Assembly (NCBI GenBank): GCA_022496205.1
Contig: WTXD01000020.1
Coordinates: forward strand, 310,001 to 374,000
DNA length: 64,000 nt
From: Gloeopeniophorella convolvens
Lineage: Eukaryota > Basidiomycota > Agaricomycetes > Russulales
Direction of reading: 5' to 3'
A program made the translations under genes and the position numbers. Below, in pieces: positions 1,125 to 64,000 of this stretch. Each line of letters starts with the position of its first letter. The first letter of the stretch is position 1. A model generated the notes under the pieces. It did not search any database. It saw nothing but the letters and a program-made list of their open reading frames with translations, and was not told the origin of the DNA.

Positions 1125-3714
1125 ATGTCCTTCTCTGAAGACGAGAAGAGGTCCGTCGACCTCGAGAAGCACGACCCCCAGAGCCTCGGTGGGGGCGACG
1201 CCGTCCCCGTTGACGACTTTTCCGACCCCAACTACGACCCCACGGCCGCTGCGCTCGAGGATGAGTCGCCTTACCCTGAGGTCCGCTCCGCCGTCGCCAA
1301 CACGGACGACCCCTCCATGCCCGCCTCCACCTTCCGCGCATGGTTCATCGGTCTCATCTGGGCTATCCTTATTCCTGGTGTCAACCAGTTCTTTTTCTTC
1401 CGCTTCCCCTCCGTCAACATTACCCAGGTCAGTCCCCTACTTGGCGTGCTCATTTAATTATTTTCCATTGCTCACGTCGCCTCGCCTACCACCTAGATCG
1501 TGCCCCAGCTCTTGACCTTCCCCATCTGCAAGGCCTGGGCCCGCTATTTCCCTAATGTTACTCTCTTCGGTCTTTCCCTCAATCCCGGTCCCTTCACCAT
1601 CAAGGAGCATGTCATCATCACCATCATGGCCGGTGTTGGCGCCCAGTCTGCTTATGCCGTAAGCACTTTGTTCATCTTATCTCCCCTCCGCGTTTCGCCG
1701 ATCTCACCCCACCCCTAGACCGACATTGTCGCTGTCCAGCGTGTGTTCTACAACCAGACCACCAACTTTGGATGTCAGTGCTTCGCGTGCCATGTGCTCT
1801 TCCCACCCATTCACTAATCCATTCCCACACAGACCAGTGGCTCTTGGTCATGTCCACCCAGCTCATTGGCTTCTCCATCGGTGGTATTTGCAAGCGCTTC
1901 CTCGTATCGCCCCCGTCTATGATCTGGCCTGCCAACCTTGTCACCGCCGCTCTCTTCAACACGCTGCACGCGCAGGAGACCTCTGGTACCCAGGCCCGTG
2001 GCGGTATCTCTCGCGAGCGCTTCTTCTCGTACGTGTTCTTCGGCTACATCCTCTACAGTAAGCCTCCCTTTCGTATCATTTTTGCTCCCATTGGCTCAAC
2101 CGTCGATCAGACTTCTTCCCGTCGTACATCTTCACCGCGCTCTCTTCCTTCTCATGGGTCTGTTGGATCGCACCGAACAATCGCAAGGTCAACCAGTTGT
2201 TCGGCACCAGCCATGGCCTCGCCATGGGTCTCTTGACCTTCGACTGGGGCCAGATCGCGTATAATGGCTCTCCCCTCCCCGTTCCATGGTGGGCTGCCGC
2301 CAACATCGGAATGGCCGTCGTCTTCTTCTACTGGTTCATCTGCCCGATCCTGTACTACTCCAACGTCTGGTTCACGAGCTACCTCCCCATGGTCTCGTCC
2401 AACTCGTTCGACAACCGGGGCAAGTCGTACAACGTCACGCGTATTATCAACGCCGACGCGTCCTTCAACGACGAAGCATACAAGGCGTACAGCCCACTCT
2501 TCCTGTCTGCGTCATTCGCCATCTCCTATGGTCTCTCGTTCGCGTCGATCACCGCTACGCTCACCCACACCTTCCTGTACTACCGCAAGCAGATCTGGAC
2601 CCAGGCGCGCCGGTCGCTCTCTGAGCAGCCTGATATCCACGCTCGTCTCATGTCCGTCTACAAGGAGGTTCCCGACTGGTGGTACCTTGGCATTTTCCTC
2701 ACCATGTTCGTATTCGGTGTCGTAGCCATTGAGGTCTGGAACACGCAGTTCCCCGTCTGGGCCTTTGTCCTCGCCCTCATCGTCTGTAAGTTTTCTGATT
2801 GCATTTGCGGATTTACCTCGTGATTGACCGGCCTGTCATTCCCAGCGTTCGTGTACACCGTTCCCATCGGTGTCATCCAGGCCATCACGAACCAGCAGGT
2901 CGGCCTGAACGTTATCACCGAGCTGATCATCGGCTATGCGCTTCCAGGCCGCCCGATCGCGATGATGATGTTCAAGACCTGGGGCTACATCACCATGGCT
3001 CAGGCGCTGCAGTTCACGTCGGACTTCAAGCTCGGCCATTACATGAAGATCCCCCATCGCCCGATGTTCTTCTGCCAGGTCGTCGCGACCATGGTTGCCG
3101 GTACCGTGCAGCTCGCCGTTCAGGCGTGGATGTTCACCAACATCGAGGACTTGTGCTCGGCCGACCAAAAGGACAACTTCATTTGCCCATCGACGACAGT
3201 GTTCGGCACCGCCTCGATTATCTGGGGTGTCATTGGCCCGGCGCGTCTGTTCTCGCACGGCCACATGTTCTACGGCCTCCTCTTCTTCTTCCTCGTCGGC
3301 TTCCTCGCGCCGCTCACCCAGTGGGCCCTGCACAAGAAGTTCAAGCTCGGGATCCTCAAGTACCTCAACTTCCCGCTCATCTTCACCGGTACAGGCAACA
3401 TGCCGCCCGCGACGCCGCTCAACTACGTCCCGTGGGTGATCATCTGCTTCCTGTTCAACTACGTCATCCGCCGGCGCCACTTTGGCTGGTGGTCCAAGTA
3501 CAACTACGTGCTGTCTGCGGGCCTGGACGCGGGCTACGCCGTGGGCTTGATCATCATCTTCTTCACGCTGCAGTACCCGAAGAACGGCACGATTGGCGAG
3601 AACAGCATCCTGACGTGGTGGGGCAACACCGTGTACGCCAACACAATGGACGCGGCGGCCGCGCCGCTCAAGGTGGCTCCCCCCGGCCAGACGTTCGGTC
3701 CCGCGACGTGGTAA
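1125..3714 (+). CDS. Oligopeptide transporter, OPT family (six exons)
   Basis: A proton-coupled oligopeptide/metal-chelate transporter by family, expected in the plasma or another cell membrane. My exons are 1125-1427, 1497-1658, 1719-1773, 1833-2057, 2111-2785 and 2846-3714. All junctions are GT..AG and keep frame, giving about 762 residues, a usual OPT length. An acidic cytosolic N-terminus of about 85 residues precedes many hydrophobic segments. The family motif NPGPFTIKEH is encoded near 1580-1615. A second conserved block, PGRPIAMMMFK, starts near 2945, and KIPHRPMF near 3047 matches the KIPPR-type signature. The C-terminal half is one long exon ending in a short hydrophilic tail. No frame damage is seen. 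It converges on the sugar kinase gene on the other strand. Substrate (peptide, glutathione or siderophore) cannot be told from sequence. Confidence 0.95.
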
Positions 3715-12675: not shown

Positions 12676-13160
12676 TGTTGAAGCGCAGCAGAGGGTGGAG
12701 TGACAACTGAAGGACACAAAGTGATGCTCAGTCAGAGAAGGTCAAAAGACTTATACATTAGTGCAATACCTGAAGGACACAAAGTGACGCTATAAGGTAA
12801 AGTAAGCATAAGGTAGAAGTGAAAGGAGTGGTAGTGTACTTGCCTCAGTCAGAGAAGGTCAAAAGACTGAGGCTACAAAGGCAAAGAAAGAGGTCCTTAT
12901 ATACAGTAAGGAGCGACAGATAGCATGTGATAAACACTGCTTAGAAAGCCTAGGAGACCCACATGAAACGGAGTAAGAGTGGGTACCGGAGTACAAGGTG
13001 GGTTATGGAATGCCCTAGAATAGTCCAGAACATGGAAACGAATGTGGGGCTGAGCACAGCCTTAAGTCTAGAACATTATGTACATAAGATAAGATAGTCC
13101 TTGATCATTAGGTCCATATCTAATCTAATCAGAGCCGCCAGGACACTGTCCATCTCAACA
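12676..13160 (-). repeat. 3' LTR of the copia element (485 bp)
   Basis: Begins TGTTGAAG and ends CTCAACA on the plus strand, a perfect 6 bp inverted end. It includes TATATAAGG on the minus strand near 12903-12895 and partly duplicated words (gaaggtcaaaagact at about 12735 and 12853). The outer parts match the other LTR at roughly 95% by eye. Confidence 0.92.
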
Positions 13161-13169
13161 TCCCCCCGT
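13161..13169 (-). promoter_or_regulatory. Polypurine tract of the copia element
   Basis: On the minus strand ACGGGGGGA lies directly before the 3' LTR start, the position used to prime plus-strand DNA. Confidence 0.7.
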
Positions 13170-18362: not shown

Positions 18363-18648
18363 TGTTGAAGCGCAGCAAAGGGTGGAGTGACAACTGAAGG
18401 ACACAAGGTGACGCTCAGTCAGAGAAGGTCAAAAGACTAGGAGACCCACATGAAACGGAGAATAGGTGGGTACCGGAGTACAGAGTGGGTCATGGAATGC
18501 CCTAGAAGAGTCCAGAAACATGGAAACGAATGTGGGGCTGAGCACAGCCTTAAGTCTAGAACATTATGTACACAAGATAAGATAGTCCTTGATCATTAGG
18601 TCCATATCTAATCTAATCAGAGCCGCCAGGACACTGTCCGTCTCAACA
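18363..18648 (-). repeat. 5' LTR of the copia element, 199 bp shorter than the 3' LTR
   Basis: Same ends as the left LTR. The segment between 'gtcaaaagact' and 'aggagaccc' is missing. In the other LTR that segment holds the only clear TATA box. Confidence 0.9.
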
Positions 18649-19075
18649 TCGCCTTGGTCCTCACTGCGGTAGTTCCATTCTATCAAGCGTCTGCACCACT
18701 CTGACCCATTTTGTAGACCCACTGCTGCCTTGATGAGTGGGCTACTGGCGTCAAGAGCTCCGTCACCTTTGCTGCAAGTGACTATAAGCCGATCTACGTT
18801 CGGTACATGGATACGCTTGCCGGCTTCGAAGCCCACACCCAGCACAAGTCGCTCTCTGTCAAGTTGCGTCAACGTCTGCACGACAATGGCAGGTAAGTGC
18901 CCTGGCATGCTATACCGACTACATGGGTGAATTGACTGAAATGTCCAAGTGCCACGCAGGCGCACTTCCTCTCATCAGTCACAGAGTGATGCTCGACTTG
19001 CCCACGGCTGCCTTTGATGCCGCGCTGGAGGAGGAGGACTCCAACTCTGCCACCGAGTCTGAGAGTGACGAGTAG
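18649..19075 (+). pseudogene. DUF6532-like C-terminal fragment
   Basis: Directly after the LTR the plus strand encodes ALVLTA. A 48 bp GT..AG intron then leads to THCCLDEWATG, DYKPIYVRYMDTLAGFEAH and KLRQRLHDNG, then a second intron and an acidic tail ending ATESESDE at the stop (19073-19075). The pattern (an Ala/Leu helix, 'DEW.TG', a 'Y...Y..H...L' helix, an acidic end) resembles the basidiomycete DUF6532 family as I remember it. The N-terminal part is absent: it would lie across the element, but the left flank does not show it. The gene is therefore broken, either by the insertion or by rearrangement. Confidence 0.4.
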
Positions 19076-54040: not shown

Positions 54041-55258
54041 GCGACGTCGCTTCACCAAAACAGTGACGAAACACGTCAAGCTCTTTATCGATGTGACTGG
54101 GATCAAACGGTATAGGTCGGGATCGGGGTTCACAGCGTTCGCTGTCTTGCAGAAGCCCCCTGGTCTGCGCCACGGAGAGCCGGGGATCGACGGCTATGAG
54201 ACGCACGATAAATTGTGGAGAGCATAACCATGAATTAAATAAACTCACCCGACATGTGCGAGGCGTCTGGTAGGATGACTCTAGCTACACGAAGAGTCTG
54301 TATCACAGGGTGTTTTGACGGAGCTATATATACATGCCGCGCTGCCTGGGCGCACCCACGACCACCACGCGTACATGGTGCATACCCAGGCTTGAATTGG
54401 AGACCGATAACGAAACATGCGTCGTGCAGCGTGCATCATGAGCTAAGTAGTCTGACGCGTGGACCTTGCATATCGTGATAGGACTCGCTTGCAGGCAGAG
54501 TATTTGATCCACGATTGGAACTGAATATAAATCACAGACTCGGAAGTATTTTTAGGTATTCCGAGCAGAGCGGACGACCAGGCGACTGCGGAAGGAGGTG
54601 ATCGGTTGAGGCACTTAACAACGGCAGTGAGGGGCGCTGTTCAGAATTTTAGTCAGTAAAATTCAATTCGTATGCCGGGCAGTGATTGTGCGCACCAAGA
54701 GGACATGCCCTCGTATATCCGAGGACGTATCTCAGACGGGGAACCGTGGTTCAGCTGACCATGTGGGCAATTATCTCAAAGCCAATCGCTAGATCACGAA
54801 CGTGAGGTCCGTGACGCTTTTTGGCGATACCTTATGTCTTGTTATGAGAACGAATTAGGCGCGAATGCCACTGCGTAAGGACTCACTAGATACGCATCCA
54901 GCGCGTCTCCACACAAAATGGAACCCGTATTCGGCCCCGTCGGAACGCTTCGCGGGGTAGAGGTATCCCCTATACGAGCTATACGAGCTCATGGGACGGT
55001 GTTAATACACTGCGGGGCTGCTCCTCGTCGGCGTGACGAACTCGTAATGGGTTGTACTCGAATATTTTTGCCAAGACTTGCCCATCACGAAGAGTAAGTC
55101 GAGGGAAGATGACACGTATTCTTGGGGTGGAAAGCGCGACAAAAGGAACTTATGTCATGAGGCTTGAATACCGATGTAAAGATGCAACGCGCGGACTCTG
55201 ACAAAAGCTGCACGGGACCGTCCAGGCGCGTACTAAGTACAGTTGCGGCATCCCATAC
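54041..55258. other. Gene-free stretch
   Basis: No supported gene, RNA or repeat. Composition is balanced and stops are frequent. Confidence 0.4.
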
Positions 55259-55706
55259 TCAACTTGGACGCGACCTGTCGTAAGATGAGATGTTGTCATG
55301 GAGAGGCGGTCGGACGAAACGTACCGCGTCAAGGAGCATAGCGCCGCTTATCCAGTCCCACACAGCGTCACGGATTTCGTTGGGAGAACATGCGCCCGTG
55401 CCGAAGTAGGACCCCCAGATGTCCCACCACTCTCTGGACCTCCGTCCCCGACAATTGAGCCCAGGGCAGGCAAGTAACCTGTCGAGGAATCTCGCCGTTT
55501 CGGGGACATATCCGCTGAAGAGAGATTTGGGCTGAAAACCACCAGGACGATTATACAAGAGGCTGGGAGAGCAATGTATTCAGATTCGGGGGAATCGAGA
55601 AGGTCGGACGGTGAACTCACGGATTAAATCCCATCCCCGATGACAGCAAGTCTTGCGAAACATCCGCGCGGATCCACCCCGGGTTGTTATCGAGCGTCAA
55701 TACCAT
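55259..55706 (-). CDS. Small protein of unknown function (two exons)
   Basis: ATG at 55706 (MVLTLDNNPGWIRADVSQDL) runs to a GTGAGT donor at 55620. A 58 bp intron joins in phase to 55562-55259, giving 129 residues. The second exon is Trp-rich and well balanced (EWWDIWGSYFGTG, RDAVWDWISGAMLLD), unlike chance frames nearby. I do not recognise a family. More exons may lie upstream: a frame near 55,850-55,710 reads SYDESPRRFFAHQLAKHHLL but ends in a stop. It may be a fragment of a larger gene. Confidence 0.35.
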
Positions 55707-56490
55707 CTGTTGACTTGCTGTCCTGAGAAAAGGAGGTGATGTTTGGCAAGTTGATGCGCAAAGAAGCGCCTGGGGCTCTCGTCGTACGACAGGGTGGTTC
55801 CACCCGACACGGGAGTGAGGGACACGAAGAATTGGTGGATGGGGATTGTTTCACTCTCCGTAGAGCCATCATTGGTACAGATTTGTAGAAAAGAGAGGCG
55901 TTCCTAGGTTGTGGGCGTCGTCTCCGGATTCGCACAGGCTAGCTGGCGGATCCGACAGTAGGATAAAGACATTGAAGACACGTTAGCCTGCGGCACGTCT
56001 GCAAAATTCAAAACATGTATAAAAATGCAAAATGGATGCGTACGCACTGGCATGCGAGTATGTTGCAGTACTCAGTGTTCGGTGGGATCTGTTTGAATGG
56101 CTCGCGCAAGAGGGAGGGACAAGGCCGAATTAGAAGGTGCGTGAGTCAGAAGTGGTTCTGCGATAATCGGTCCCAATGATGGCGATGGTACGTTGCGCGG
56201 AAACACAGAAAGGTGTGGCAGGAATAATGATTCAAACGATGGCTCAGGTTGCTGCAGCGACGGTGGAGAGCAAGGGGACATCCGAGCCACCACTGGCCGC
56301 CCAAGGCCGCGCCGGCACCGGCTCGGCGGCGGGCGGCGGCCGAGTTCCATTGACCGCAAAACTTGGGTCGAACTACGATGGAAACTAGTATAAGTTTGCC
56401 TCTACTACCCCATACTTCGCCGCCTTTTTGCGACGACATCAAGCTTTATGCGAGTAGAGTACGTTGCGTGTGCCCACGCAGACCCGAAGC
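55707..56490. other. Gene-free stretch
   Basis: Possible upstream exon of the unknown gene near 55,850-55,710. Otherwise nothing recognised. Confidence 0.3.
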
Positions 56491-57672
56491 TCATGCCTCC
56501 ATGACCGCCCCCGCCACAGCCGCGCGGTCCAGCTCGCGCAGCCGCGCCTGCCCGCCCGCACGCGCATGAGCCTGCCGCCGCGCCGCAGCACGCACGCACG
56601 CACGCACCCCGAGCGCGAAGAGGTGCGAGTCGTGCGCCCCGGGCACGAGCGCGCGCACCGCCATGGCGAGGTTGTATACGTAGTCCTGCCCCCGCCATCA
56701 ACCCCGCGCGCGCGCGCCCAGGCTCACGACGCACCTTGTTGCGCCCCGATGGCCTCACAGCGGCCCATATCGTGCGCGCGAGCGCGTCGAGCGGCTTCGC
56801 GCTGATTGCGCCCGGCCAGCGTCAGTGCTGCACGTATGTATATGCGAGAGGAGTACGCGCAACGCAACTGAAGGATGGGCCGTCGCTGCGTCCGATGTAG
56901 CACTCGGCGCGCGGGACCACGACGCGCTCCGTGTCGTTCGGTGTGTGCGCGTAGACATCGACGCGCTCGGGGGCGTAGCCGTCCTGCGCACGCGGTGGGC
57001 GTTGGTATTGAGTATGCAATACCGCGTGGGGGCGGGCGCTGCGCACCCTTTCGCGGTAGTCTGTCACCGTTGCTGCCGCCAGCTAGAAGGACGTACAGAA
57101 GGGGGCGCGGCGCACTGAGCTCGTTGCGCACCACGCGCGTGTGCGCCGGGTCGATCGTGAATGCCACGCCTGTCTCCACTGCTGAGCAGCACCACCCACA
57201 GCAACCGGCGCGCGAACGCACCCCAGACGGCGTCCTCTTGCGGAAACGCGTCGGCCGCCGAGATCGTGGTCCAGTCCTACTGGTGCACAAGCGTCACGAC
57301 GCGCCCGGGGTGCTGCCACACCGCCCATCGCGCCACATCGCGTCGCATCGTGGAAGGGAGGAGGGCAGGCCCGGGCGCACCTCCGGCGTGCCGCGATGGT
57401 CGTGCGATTTTTGCGCGAAGCGGCGCACGTAGCCCTTGAGGAAACCCGGGGCTGCGCACGCTCGGAAGTCAGCACGACGATGCGGATGGGGAGGGTGTGG
57501 GGCGCACTTTTGTGGATGATCTGCGGCGGAGGCTTGGTGCGCGGGCTCAGCTCGGTGCGAGGTGGGGCGACGAGACGGGACGCACGCGGAGGATGAGGGA
57601 GCCGTAGCCAAAGACGATGTACGGTGTTGGGGTGGGTGTGGCGTCGTCAGACAGCGGCGTGGCGGCGGTCAT
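56491..57672 (-). pseudogene. ChaC-type gamma-glutamylcyclotransferase gene with nonsense and frameshift
   Basis: The family degrades glutathione to 5-oxoproline and Cys-Gly in the cytosol. ATG at 57672 leads to the hallmark YIVFGYGSLILR. A short intron joins PPPQIIHK; after another intron comes PGFLKGYVRRFAQKSHDHRG, then HPGRVVTLVHQ. The next codon is TAG where the family has an acidic residue, followed directly by DWTTISAADAFPQEDAVWG, including the Glu region near the active site. GVAFTIDPAH, DYRE, DGYAPERVDVYAHTP, VVVPRAECYIGRSDGPSF, LDALARTIWAAVRPSGRNK and YVYNLAMAVRAL continue to the stop at 56491. The join between DYRE and DGY is one base out of phase. Seven or so short introns are implied. 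Probably inactive unless the TAG and the missing base are sequencing errors. Confidence 0.8.
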
Positions 57673-58357
57673 GGCATCTTGGTGCGGGTCCGATCTAGTG
57701 CAATCCTACCTGAGTCTACTCGTGAGGAGATGTAGAGTGCAGTACAAGGTCAATTGTACTTGTACGCTCGCGTTGACGCGGAGGCCTGCGGAATCATTTC
57801 TCTCGACAATCGATGCCAGTGGCCATGACCTTCAACTTTGCAATTGCCTTCACCGTCATCAACAGCCACGCGCCACGGGCGCCAACCCCCTTTGGCAAGC
57901 AACAATCACCTCAATTCGCTCAGCTGCACTTTGGCGCTTCACAGAATCTCCGAAACAAGCTATGCTCTCTCACACACCCTGCAAAGGCGGTCTGTCAGCT
58001 GTCTATCGCCGCTGTCAACATATTGTAGCGCCTATATCCCAGCATCATCGTCCAGACCGTTACCTCCCTCGACTACTACCTTTGCTTCTCGGGTCTCGAA
58101 TCTGCAACCACGTCAACCACCCTTGCATCGTCTACATTTCTTCATGGCGAGCGATCAACTTGCGTTGACACCGTAAGCGGGACTCGTAGCCTGTCGCGGT
58201 GCTGTTACTCATCGATCGCGTGTCACACGCCTCTTCTCATCAGCCCAGGACAACCCGCATCCCAAAACCTAGGATCATCGCACGATCCGCTTGAAAGTCT
58301 ACACCGACGTTCTCACCTTCGATTGAAAAGTGAATACCCTACCTTGCTCCCCCGCGT
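57673..58357. promoter_or_regulatory. Shared upstream region of the ChaC gene and the NLR gene
   Basis: 685 bp between divergent starts. No clear TATA box. Several pyrimidine-rich stretches lie near 58,060-58,130 before the NLR start. Confidence 0.25.
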
Positions 58358-61258
58358 ATGAGAATACTGAGCGCATCTACCCACCTAGTCATTCATGCTG
58401 CCGGTCTTCATACCGTTACCGGGCTCCCTGGAAGTTTTGCAAAGCATCGGCACTTCTATGTGATTGCAACGGACGGGGTCACCACCAGGACGACCAAAGC
58501 TATACGGAGGGAAAAGCAGTTGACGAGGTGGGATGAAACATTCGACAGTTTGTACGCCGTTTCTCTCACCGTTACTTTCGGCCTCGAGCTGGTCGTCGTC
58601 CCGGACCTGATACTTTTCTTCAGCACAGTGGATCCGTCTTCGCGGCTCACGCTGCGACTGTTCGTAAAACGAGATCTTCACAGCGATGCGCTCGTAGGAG
58701 TACTCGATCTCTCCTATCCTGAGCTTATTCATGATTCCAATCCGCGCGGTACGTGATGTGATCGTCACATATTCCATGCGTCCCCAGTCGCTGACCGTTC
58801 TAACCGTAGACCTACACGTCATTCCCATTCATCTCTCTACCAAACAGTCGCAGCAGATTACCCTCCGCCTGGAGATCACGATCGATCACGCTGAGCGCCC
58901 TTCCGAGGTAGCCATCGCTTCCAGCGCCTCTATGCCGCCCTCCATCTCCGGAAAGGTGGACGATGGTCCGACCCGCAGTCCTTCGTCTACCCCATCCGCA
59001 GCCGAGACCATTCCTGGGGTGCCTTCCATTGCAGAGATGCTCGACCAAGTTAACTTGCCCGCCATTGGTAAAGCGGCTGGAAGGCTCGCTGCGCCCTCGG
59101 CGCCAGTTTCCAGCATGGCGAATGTCGCGGAGCAGGCATCGGGTGCGCTATATCAAGCTGGGAGCGTATACGACACGTGGAGCGTCGTCCTCACAAGGAT
59201 GAAATGGGTTGTTGACTGTACGGAGAAAATTGCTGAAGTTTGTGTCTCTCTTCGATCCTGCGCGTGTCGTCTTACGACTGTACCCTAGATTCATCCATAC
59301 GCCAAGACCGCATGGGGCGTCCTCTCTTTGATCCCCAATGTGCGTCGTCTTGGCTTTGCGATCCAGGGGACCATCTCGGGTTCTCATGAACTCGCTGTCA
59401 CAGACGATCTTCGCTCAAGTCGAGCGTGACGAAAATGTGAAAGCGTTGGTGCTCGCAATGCACGATGCTTTGGATCTTGCGCGTGACGCGAGCACGTTTG
59501 AGAGAAGCATTAGGGACTCGGCCCAGAGAGACATCCTGAAGGCCATGTTGGTTCATTCCCGCGCCTGTGGCGAGTTCGTCCAGACGTACGCAAAAGATAC
59601 AGAATTCTGTACGTTTCAGACGAAGGGTGCGATCTTTGTGAGTTTGATCTGATGCGAACTCGTAATTCCTAGGGAAGCGGTTACGGAAGAATACGGGACG
59701 TGGGGTTGATTCTCGCGTTGAGAGCTACTGCTCCAAGCTCGTGGCATTGCGCGATGGATTCTTGAGGCATGCCACGGTCACCATTGAGAAAACGATCTTC
59801 CAGGTCTTGGACGAGGTCGTCGACGGGAGTATGTCGCCAACGTGCCCGCAGGGTTCATGTAGAGCTGACAATGCTCGCGTAGACATGTCTGCAAAGATCG
59901 AGCAGATCCCATATCCATCAGGGGCATCCTTTCTCAGCGACAAGGGGTGCCTTGCCGGCACCCGAACCGCATTCTTGAACTACATCACCAGCTGGGTGGA
60001 AGGTCCCGACTCGGAGTCAACGCGCGCGCTCATGCTGTTTGGGCAAGCCGGGACGGGCAAGTCGTCCATCGCGCATGAAGTCGCACACCGCTTTCGCGAA
60101 ATACAACTCCTCGCGTCATCCTTCATGTTCTTGCGTGGCGAACAATCCAAACAGGAACCTCATCTCCTTTTCACCGGCCTCGTGCGCGACCTGTCCGATC
60201 GTTATCCTGCATTCCGTTCGTCTCTAGGGAAGGCCATTCAGTATGACACCTCTATTCGGCAAGGCACGAAAGACCTCTCCATGATTTTCAAGACCCTGCT
60301 GTTACAGCCCCTCAAAGACACGAACCTTGTCAGTCCCGTTTTTGTTGTCATTGACGCCCTAGATGAAGCATCGGGCGTGACTGGCCGAAATGGGGTGCAT
60401 ACATTCCTCGCGGACCATATCCACAATCTCCCCCCAAACTTCCGCATCCTCATCACATCGAGACCGGAGCACAACATCAAGCGCGCCTTCGACGAAGCCG
60501 AGTCGATCAGCGCCATCTGGATGAATAATCCAGAGCTGTCTTCTGCCTCCGAGGAGGACATTCACGCCTATCTCAAACACAACCTGCCTGCTGATATCTA
60601 TCACGAGCACGGCGAGAGACTTGCAAGGAAGACGGAGGGCCTGTTTCAGTGGGCTGCAGCGGCTTGTCGGTACATTCAAGAACCACCTGGTGGGCTTACG
60701 GAAGAAGACCTCGCGCAGCGCCTCTTAGAACCGTCCCCAGGTCATCATCCTCTGGATGCATTATACTCCACGATTCTCACATCATATTTCGACCTCAACG
60801 ACCCTCGCGTTCGGCGAAGATACCAATCAGTTATGGGACAACTATTCTCCCTGTTCGAACCGTTATCCAGCCTTTCGCTAACCGATCTGCGGCGTTATTC
60901 CCATCCCAACGACGCTGATAGTGATGATTCTGTCTCCGCCACTGTTCGCAACCTCGGCTCACTTCTAAGCAACGTCGCCCCTGCTGACTCTGGCCGTCCC
61001 ATATCCCCACTTCATACATCTTTCCGTGACTTTCTCACTTCGAAGGATAGGGCGGGGGAGTTTTGGATAGATGTCGCTGCGTCTCATCGCCAGATGGCGT
61101 ACTGCTGCCTCGGCCTCCTGATTGACAAAGTCCACTTCAACATATGCAAGCTTGTGTCGTCATATCAAAAGAACTTGGACGTTCCTGACATCCATTCCCT
61201 CGTATCCCGCTACATCTTCCCCTCCCTATCCTACGCCAGTCGCTTCTTGTTGGAATAA
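58358..61258 (+). CDS. C2-NACHT receptor (NLR-like), prematurely ended before its WD40 part
   Basis: STAND-type immune/self-recognition receptor by architecture. Exons: 58358-58551, 58624-58748, 58810-59237, 59289-59339, 59404-59608 and 59673-61258; 862 residues to the stop. Residues 1-105 are C2-like (HRHFYVIATDGV, SSRLTLRLFVKRDLHSDAL). Then come a Ser/Pro linker, a helical region (IHPYAKTAWGVLSLIPN, CGEFVQTYAKDTEF) and NACHT: Walker A GQAGTGKSS near residue 458, Walker B VFVVIDALDEA near 556, and ILITSRPEHN. The winged-helix-like end LSYASRF stops at TTGGAATAA, inside an inserted LTR. The original reading resumes after the insertion with WHDHLQHVPF, leading into WD40 repeats. As it stands, the gene makes a receptor without sensor repeats, unless the insertion is spliced out. 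Confidence 0.87.
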
Positions 61259-61751
61259 ATCTCGTATGTCCTTATTCATTTACTATACGCTTCATATTCT
61301 ATGCGCGCGCGTGCGGACAAACGCGCGCGAGTCCTTTTACCTTCGTACTTTCTGTGCCGGTGGCCCGGGCCGGGCCCCGGCGACTCGTTTCGCGCTAAGT
61401 CGTGCGCGTTGTCTATGCCCGCAAGGGCTTGCACATTTGCTTCCGGGTGGCTTGAATTTTGGTACTGTACAGCAGTGGCTGAGCCTGTTGATAACCGACT
61501 GTTCGAGCACCAGCCACCTCAGTTCTCGCCTTACCAGCGCGCGAGTATACTGAGGTGAGCATACTTTAGTTAGTTTGATTGCCAAACCTGTACTTAACTG
61601 CCTCAGCGGCGCTTCCGTTTCGTACAGGTGAATAAACATATAGTTCTCGCCTTACCAGCGCGCGAGTATACTGAGCGGCGCTTCCGTTTCGTACAGAATC
61701 GCTTCGCGCGCTTTCGAGAACCACCCGATACCCGGGCTATTTATTTCTACA
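61248..61751. mobile_element. Solo-LTR-like insertion (504 bp) with 5 bp target duplication
   Basis: Starts TGTTGGAATAAAT and ends ATTTATTTCTACA, an imperfect 13 bp inverted end with TG..CA. CTTCT is duplicated at 61243-61247 and 61752-61756. The host reading frame is exactly restored if the insert and one CTTCT are ignored. Inside, a 33 bp word (61522-61554, 61643-61675) and a 22 bp word (61606-61627, 61675-61696) are each present twice. It has no coding capacity. Confidence 0.9.
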
Positions 61752-64000
61752 CTTCTGGCATGACCACTTGCAACACGTGCCGTTTCATCCCGATTTGGTG
61801 GAGAAACTCCAGACACTCTTACTAACCAAGTTCCCATTTTGGCTCGAGTCTCTCAGCCTCCTTGGCTGCATCGACCTTGCTCTGCACGCATTGTCGACCT
61901 TGAAAGGATGGCTAGTACCCAACGAACAGATTGTAAGTGCCTAGATGCTCGCGTTTCTTTTACCTCGCGCCAGTTCTCACAAGGAGCGCCTCTGACAGAA
62001 CCCCGTTGCGGAAGTACGCACACTTTCGGCATTCGTCGATGACGCCACTGCGTTCGTGCGCTACTTCGCCATGCCCATGTCCCAGAGCGCCCCACACATC
62101 TACCTGTCCGCCCTTCCATTCTCCCCAGTATCATCACTTGTGCTCAAGCATTATGATCGCGAAATGTTCCCGAACACGATAGAGCTGAAACGGGGAAGAC
62201 TAGCTCATTGGCCAGCGCAGGAGACAGTCATCGGCGTGGGAGCAATCTGCCTTTCCGTCACGTTCTCGCCGGATGGCACACGTGTTGCTTCTGGCTTGGT
62301 GGACGGTACGATCCATATATTCAGTTCTTCAACCGGCCAGGAGATCCGAGGGCCGTTCACCGGGCATGAGGACTGGGTCAGATCTATCGTGTTCTCCCCA
62401 GATGGTCGACAACTCGTCTCCGGGTCAGATGATCGTACGATCCGAGTGTGGGACACTGCGACAGGGGAGGCAGTTTCAGAGCCATTCGCGGGACACACGA
62501 GTTGGGTCAACACCGTCGCACTTTCACCGGATGGCCAATACGTCGCATCGGGCTCAAATGACCAAACAATCCGCGTTTGGGTCATCTTCACAGGGGAGAT
62601 GGTTACGCAGCCATTCGAAGGTCACACAGGCTCTGTCAATTCTGTCGCGTTCTCTCCGGACGGTCTCAACATTGTCTCAGGCTCCACTGACGAGACCATC
62701 CTCGTCTGGAGTTTAGCAACAGGAAAGCAGGTCGTAGGGCCCCTCAAGGGGCACACCGACACTGTCAGCTCTGTCGCGTTCTCCCCAGATGGGCAGTATA
62801 TCGTCTCTGGCTCCGAGGACCACGCGATTCACATCTGGGATGCTACCACAGGGGGCTCGGTTGCAGTGCTCCTCGAGGGGCATACCGGCATCATCAATTC
62901 TATTGTTGTCTCTCAGAGATATATTATCTCATGTTCAAGTGATTCAACAATACGCGTCTGGAATGCCATGACTAGATTGCCGGCTGGGGAGCCACTCACT
63001 GGCCACGGAAGTTCCATCAGGTCCATTGCACTCTCATCGGATGGTCGACACATCGTATCAGGCTCAGAAGACAAGACAGTGCGGATCTGGGACATTTTCG
63101 CTGCGCAGCTAGCCGATCCCGTAATGCAAAGACCTATGGAGCGGGACCTCAGCATCTCACTTCCGCAGGATAGTCGGCACGCCACCTCGGGGTTAGAGGG
63201 CTACGTGGTCGACGCTATGGGCGCCGCTAAGGCAGAGACGAGCTCTGGACCACTCGGAGGACACATGGACTGGGTTTGGTCAGTCACATTCTCACCGGAT
63301 GGCAGGCTTGTTGCTTCGGGCTCAGCGGATCGCACGATCCGTATATGGGATGCCGCAACGGGTCAGGCAGTGGGAGAGCCACTCACGGGACATACAGGCG
63401 AGATCAGCTCTGTCGCTTTCTCACCGGATAGCCGACGCGTTGCCTCTGGCTCGGACGATCTGACGATCCGCGTGTGGGACGTCACGTCAAGCCAGATAAT
63501 CGTCGGACCACTCGAGGGACATCAAAACCTGATCATGTCTGTCGCGTTCTCCCCCGATGGCCAGCGGATCGCCTCAGGCTCCTTTGACAAGACTATCCGC
63601 ATCTGGGATGCCGCAACGGGAAAGACGGTGGGAAGGCCATTCACGGGTCACACAGATGCGATCCGGTCCATCGCGTTCTCGCCGAATGGTCAATATATCA
63701 CCTCGGGCTCGTACGATCATACGGTCCGACTGTGGGATGCAACAACAGGTCAGGCAATTGCAGGACCATTCACGGGACATACCCGTCGGATCTACTCTGT
63801 CACATTCTCTCCCGATGGCCGATACATTGCCTCGACCTCGCCCGATCGCTCTATCCGCGTCTGGGATACCGCGACAGGGCAACCAGCCGTGAATCCTTTC
63901 AAGCAAGTTGACCGTACTCCCCGTTCTGTTTCATTCTCGCCAGACGGTCGCCATATCGTCTGGGGTTCGGCAGATGGTGCAATTCAAATCTTGGACGCCA
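61752..64000 (+). CDS. WD40 sensor part of the NLR-like receptor, cut off at the window edge
   Basis: Downstream part of the gene starting at 58358, separated by the LTR insertion. Exon 61752-61932 (WHDHLQHVPF, FPFWLESLSLLG) splices at GTAAGT to 61999 onward (RYFAMPMSQSAPHIYLSALP, RLAHWPAQETVI). From 62257 at least 13 WD40 repeats follow, most about 43 residues with GH..[VI].S[VI].FSPDG..[IV].SGS.D.TIR[IV]WD.ATG. They are presumed to form a beta-propeller that recognises the ligand. Repeat 6 is shortened, and a degenerate linker lies at 63,100-63,245. The frame is open to the last base. No ATG of its own is placed to start this part, so whether it is expressed alone is unknown. Confidence 0.88.

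Follow-up and report, generated by a model that had tools for sequence, protein, structure and literature searches.

A young Ty1/copia solo long terminal repeat interrupts a C2-NACHT-WD40 receptor gene in Gloeopeniophorella convolvens, a probable loss-of-function allele

Agaricomycetes carry large repertoires of NOD-like receptors (NLRs), with 72 hits per species, and in a few basidiomycetes a C2 domain forms the N-terminus of NLR candidates (Dyrka et al. 2014, PMC4986451). In Podospora anserina, loss of WD repeats is reported to be by far the commonest route to inactivation of het-d and het-e in screens (PMC1805685), and some inactive het-e alleles typically have few WD40 repeats (PMC12881547). 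Here we describe a receptor gene of the wood-inhabiting Russulales basidiomycete Gloeopeniophorella convolvens in which C2 is likewise N-terminal and which is interrupted by a solo long terminal repeat (LTR). The gene lies in a 64,000-nucleotide stretch, called the window throughout (C113:310001-374000; C113 is contig WTXD01000020.1 of a 36.7-Mb assembly in 404 contigs). We consider it very probable that a recent copia insertion, since reduced to a solo LTR, has turned one member of a large NLR family into a loss-of-function allele.

An LTR within the linker exon

The C2-NACHT half of the gene runs on the plus strand, as do all parts of the gene and its insertion, from a start codon at 58144 through several short introns to 61258, where it ends at a TAA codon supplied by the LTR. 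It has been deposited as BC834DRAFT_239814 (P0001), a protein of 872 amino acids with the C-terminus ...YASRFLLE. The LTR itself (61248..61751; TGTTGGAATAAAT...ATTTATTTCTACA) is 504 bp long, has TG..CA termini that are also the points at which other genomic copies of the repeat end, and is directly adjoined on both sides by CTTCT (61243..61247 and 61752..61756), a target-site duplication; two fixed 5-mers would match by chance about once in 900. In each of two contigs the duplication adjoins NLR exon to the left and to the right, with no internal element region. Position 61247 is the first base of a codon and 61757 the second, and the reading frame resumes after the second CTTCT. Reading into the insert gives ...YASRF-LLE-stop, the TAA standing at 61256..61258, and the deposited protein has exactly these last residues. 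Beyond the second duplication follow an orphaned linker exon (61757..61932; HDHLQHVPFHPDLVEKLQ...), which is conserved in paralogues and has no in-frame ATG, a 66-bp intron (61933..61998; GTAAGT...CAG, read from the sequence, with its ends checked) and the WD40 half (61999..64000), which is open to the window end and meets its own stop 425 bases farther on. Three in-frame ATGs of the WD40 exon, at 62071, 62077 and 62164, all lie upstream of its first repeat. A preliminary description of this DNA had proposed a 504-bp TG..CA solo LTR with CTTCT repeats in a frame-preserving site, a TAA after three LTR codons, and NACHT and WD40 halves that belong to one NLR; each of these points agreed with our analysis. 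The insertion into the NLR gene is real.

The same description had placed the break exactly between NACHT and WD40, which needs correction. In the 872-residue product the Pfam match to NACHT stops at residue 649, with the insertion about 220 codons farther on, and the first propeller match shown corresponds to residue 80 of the WD40 exon (about position 62236), some 140 codons beyond the insertion. The cut therefore falls inside the conserved linker that joins the nucleotide-binding core to the propeller. A NACHT-type domain is present (PF24883 NPHP3_N, E 1.3e-23; PF05729 NACHT, E 3.8e-09; both above cut-off), and 13 WD40 stretches lie downstream, but the TAA of the LTR separates the two, and at the window locus no C-terminal WD40 was found in the same reading unit as NACHT. 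On account of this stop codon we file the gene as a broken copy and not as a working NLR. For the N-terminus of the 872-residue product, Foldseek returned many C2 domains (E about 1e-6 to 6e-5 among the 50 rows shown), which supplies the N-terminal effector or signalling domain expected of an NLR. Pfam C2 was not significant on the window exon (E 0.23), nor was it listed for P0001 at 0.01; it was significant in the paralogue P0004 (1.2e-05), whose N-terminus aligns with that of the window gene (E 8e-20).

Paralogous loci provided empty sites for comparison. We examined the 28 best-scoring matches (L011-L038), the other two of the top 30 being the window and a second contig, C258. At all 28 loci the sequences that flank the LTR in the window are adjacent, with 1-6 nt between the matched ends, no insert and no intron, and a WD40 match follows within 1.5 kb downstream. 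Exactly one codon (3 nt, the W in RFW-DDHLQH) stands between the flanks at 26 of them; L035 has 1 nt there, which hints at a disturbed frame, and at L038 the match is shorter by one residue and is followed by 6 nt. The corresponding distance in the window and C258 is 512 nt, or 3 + 504 + 5. Two separate paired match tables for the flanks of the insertion site agreed.

Contig C258 (12,236 bp) matches window positions 55253-64000 and 336 bases beyond at 99.4-99.7% identity, and differs from C113 over about 9.1 kb by 8 mismatches and 44 gap positions in BLAST (19 and 43 in MAFFT). It carries the same LTR, CTTCT duplication and flanks as the window, and its exons carry single-base indels. We considered whether there might be two gene copies with the same insertion, as the C258 protein that runs into the LTR is 88% identical to that of the window, yet the DNA is more than 99% identical and differs mainly by 1-nt indels, and we therefore read C258 as the same locus and not as an old duplicate. 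It could be either the haplotype of the other nucleus or a set of poorly polished leftover reads, and a very recent duplication could also account for it. C258 further contains a 3,169-bp element (C258:1381-4549, L040) at window position 56631, where C113 has no counterpart; the element has inverted ends (CATCACCAAAACCCGAA...) and is, by our own reading, flanked by TC, and it has relatives at about 35 other genomic loci, most of them partial.

That two contigs cross the LTR also bears on whether the assembly can be trusted here. A full-length element, or a chimeric joint, might have collapsed to a single LTR, since the LTR occurs in multiple copies and identical ones can be merged in assembly. 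The concern about an artefact raised in the preliminary description is largely answered by the second contig, which spans the same LTR, duplication and flanks, although this contig belongs to the same assembly and seems poorly polished. Even so, both contigs have the NLR gene on either side of the LTR together with the same CTTCT duplication, full-length copies of the family were resolved in this very assembly (on C257, C69 and C401), and the differences between C258 and C113 are mostly gaps, of the kind that a few uncorrected long reads would probably leave. We regard an artefact as very unlikely.

Family and age of the LTR

A search of the genome with the LTR gave 54 matches, which is a lower bound. 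At least 13 loci hold the greater part of the LTR with an identity of about 78% or higher (our own selection, in which C258 was dropped and shorter or more diverged matches were left uncounted): nine are solo LTRs, three are full-length elements, and one, on C92, lies about 0.9 kb from the contig end with element interior adjoining it. Seven solo copies have a perfect 5-bp duplication, namely the window copy (CTTCT) and those on contigs C370 (ATTTC), C70 (TGCGC), C101 (ATAAG), C2 (ATTAG), C27 (ACAGA) and C342 (AAAGT). The other two are interrupted or older, one on C371 (CGGAC on both sides, with about 0.9 kb inside) and one on C369 (four of five bases alike). The full-length copies are flanked by AGTCT (C257), GAACG (C69) and CGCGC (C401). 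The eleven perfect duplications have no sequence in common; solo LTRs are routine in this genome, and with a different 5-mer at each locus no fixed target sequence is seen. Recombination between the two LTRs of an element is the routine origin of solo LTRs. The copy on C257, the one full-length copy covered by our domain scan, encodes RVT_2 (E 7.4e-62) and Retrotran_gag_2 (E 1.9e-14); the element is Ty1/copia.

The window LTR is identical to the solo copy on C370 (0 differences in 504 positions), and this identity marks it as young, in agreement with the recent insertion proposed earlier. It differs from each LTR of the C257 element by two positions and from the other copies compared by up to 24 substitutions (C369 and C371 excluded). 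The split from the C370 copy is bounded at about 3.0 to 0.3 million years (95%), for rates of 1e-9 to 1e-8 per site per year that are assumed and were not measured in this species. The identical C370 copy (C370:81938-82441, L001) sits 5' of an open reading frame with a UstYa match (PF11807, E 3.5e-09).

Youth also alters how the state of the exons is to be read. The exons of C113 are readable, the C2-NACHT exons being read through in the deposited model and the linker and WD40 exons being open, so the description of them as otherwise clean fits this contig. The suggestion that selection may have kept the pieces intact does not follow: the insertion is too young for decay, both halves would look clean either way, and clean exons are no sign of selection.

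Several LTR copies lie near other NACHT genes. The window copy and 3 of the 12 other loci are within 15 kb of a NACHT locus (4/13, binomial P 0.002), and 3 of 13 are within 5 kb (P 0.003). As the window copy had been picked for its place in an NLR, we recomputed the figures without it: among the remaining 12 loci, 2 lie within 5 kb (P 0.028) and 3 within 15 kb (P 0.014). A comparison repeat, the relatives of the 3.17-kb element of C258, had 1 of 35 loci within either distance; these loci were merged by hand from 112 of 114 match rows, the two C258 rows being dropped. The NACHT loci were themselves hand-picked, 76 being kept from 110 matches after the C258 duplicate, second pieces and N-terminal exon pieces had been dropped, and contig ends were ignored. 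We regard the case for targeting of NLRs by this family as weak and do not claim it.

Possible traces of other retroelements were seen in and next to the window. A long open reading frame with an rve integrase core lies on the minus strand 694-2499 bases past the window end (L039:694-2499), beginning about 270 bp beyond the stop codon of the NLR gene itself, and is probably part of another retroelement. A direct repeat of 222 bp (94% identity; window 12945-13165 and 18432-18653, 5.5 kb apart) may represent the LTRs of yet another.

Fate of the interrupted receptor

We propose that a member of a large C2-NACHT-WD40 family was recently hit in its linker exon by a Ty1/copia element, which duplicated CTTCT, and that recombination between the two LTRs of the element would then have deleted its interior, so that a single 504-bp LTR was left behind. 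This LTR stops translation after three codons, such that an unspliced message would give at best the 872-residue C2-NACHT protein, lacking the WD40 sensor. If, as we infer, splicing does not rescue the transcript and function is lost, the gene would no longer be a sensor receptor and would be one of those lost as receptors arise and die out in an expanded family (birth-and-death). The event is of an ordinary kind, the disruption by a transposon of one member of an NLR family. The preliminary description had left open whether the product is inactive, constitutively active or dependent on a separate WD40 protein; we rank inactivity first, by analogy with Podospora. There, many natural alleles are inactive, and non-reactive het-d alleles have fewer or more repeats than active ones (PMC12222747), which speaks against a simple rule. 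In the present genome, about 14 of the 76 NACHT loci are, in our reading, fragments only, some of which introns or contig ends may explain.

Several observations weigh against a plain loss of function: the 872-residue remnant keeps the modelled C2 fold and nucleotide-binding core and could retain activity, both halves remain open on C113, other NACHT-only proteins of the species could hint that such forms are tolerated, and some potential introns would bypass the stop. A truncated C2-NACHT protein might be constitutively active, its autoinhibitory or sensing propeller being gone, or might serve as a helper or dominant-negative partner of its paralogues. Its predicted model (mean pLDDT 68, pTM 0.51) contains a C2-like sandwich, a helical stretch modelled with low confidence, the nucleotide-binding core and the helices that follow. 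The best Foldseek rows for the core include a maltose-system regulator chain, plant NLR resistosomes, CED-4 and Apaf-1, at low TM-scores over the whole chain (no higher than 0.29 by query length); a sequence search found no solved relatives at E 0.001. Apaf-1 without its WD40 repeats is active without cytochrome c. Two further deposited proteins of G. convolvens end without WD40, found in a protein list that spans 0.55-1.75 times the query length. P0003 (BC834DRAFT_1045384, 909 residues) is the paralogue L037 (C378:84106-88740, at about 3135-3185), which stops at a TAG in frame, 15 codons beyond the same junction, its linker frame continuing afterwards by eye; the other is P0004 (825 residues). 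Against activity of the remnant stand the inactive het-d and het-e alleles that result from WD-repeat loss in Podospora (PMC1805685, PMC12881547), the low confidence of the last modelled helix (851-871), at whose end the model is cut, and an insertion too young to show retention; a strongly autoactive inducer of death, moreover, should not persist in a living strain. The hints in favour of a working truncated receptor are weak, and we think it unlikely.

The NACHT-only forms also enter a further account, by which the LTR would have turned a one-piece receptor into two parts: a signalling protein with NACHT alone, and WD40 that is either translated on its own under LTR-derived expression, with an in-frame ATG such as that at 62071 or 62164 as its start, or provided by paralogues. 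NACHT-only forms would then recur, and the paralogue stopped about 15 codons past the same junction was taken as such a recurrence. No separate deposited WD40 protein of G. convolvens was found among the matches listed (90 and 38 proteins, length-limited), an absence that is only suggestive, as the search that listed 90 covered the best 7999 candidates by shared words and most entries are unnamed. We consider this two-piece account very improbable. Rescue by splicing would instead require a cryptic intron that removes the LTR and yields a near-normal receptor with a changed linker. Among GT donors in 61160-61500 and AG acceptors in 61560-61860, twelve pairs avoid the LTR stop and keep the frame, for example 61249-61718 and 61239-61696, and the acceptor of the latter (TTTCGTACAG) looks good by eye. 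None of the twelve, however, restores the native protein. Their donors (GTTCCT, GTATCC, GTCGCT, GTTGGA) look poorer than the gene's own, which are GTACGT twice, GTGCGT, GTATGT and GTAAGT, with GTTTGT implied by the deposited protein, and none fits the usual GTRNGT. They would remove 437-668 bp, against 66 bp in the next intron, and the deposited gene model has no intron that removes the LTR. We judge such a rescue highly improbable, and loss of function remains the explanation that we prefer.

Read as a loss-of-function allele, the locus is a clean, young and well-bounded case of receptor loss caused by a transposon among clustered basidiomycete NLR genes. Its paralogous empty sites and datable insertion would make it usable for estimating the rate at which fungal NLR alleles are lost, and for asking if such losses are tolerated or instead favoured. 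Only a functional truncated product would give the locus greater importance. Elsewhere in the genome, C371 and C395 each have six NACHT matches within about 70 kb. In Sordariales, NLR clusters were reported to comprise two to five NLRs, as defined there by criteria on intervening genes (PMC12258605).

Comparison with known systems

We found no description of a solo LTR in a fungal NLR in the literature searched, most subscription papers being outside its scope, and the available text of PMC4986451 has no occurrence of transposon, transposable or pseudogen. The inactive het-d (d3) and het-e (e4) alleles of Podospora resemble the present gene in that change or loss of the WD40 sensor leaves them non-reactive (PMC12222747, PMC12881547, PMC1805685); they differ in that their repeats were lost, gained, changed or given stops, whereas here an insertion severs the whole WD40 half. 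At het-v of the V1 type, allorecognition genes were likewise lost at a site of transposable elements, including one of Copia-Ty1 type (PMC9262711). There, however, a cluster of elements replaced five genes and the haplotype is a functional incompatibility type, while in G. convolvens a single LTR interrupts one exon. The NWD/HNWD genes of Podospora and the pseudogenes NWDp1-3 likewise form a NACHT-WD40 family with broken members (PMC1805685), and NWDp3 has a transposable-element relic upstream; a 60-kb inversion apparently separated it from its HET part (PMC1805685). Damage in that family came from repeat-induced point mutation (RIP) and inversion, and the effector is HET; in G. convolvens a copia solo LTR parts C2-NACHT from WD40. 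Compared with solo LTRs of Ty1/copia elements, the window copy has the same TG..CA ends and 5-bp duplication, lacks an interior, and has both full-length and solo siblings. It does not differ from them in any respect that we saw, and merely happens to lie in an NLR exon.

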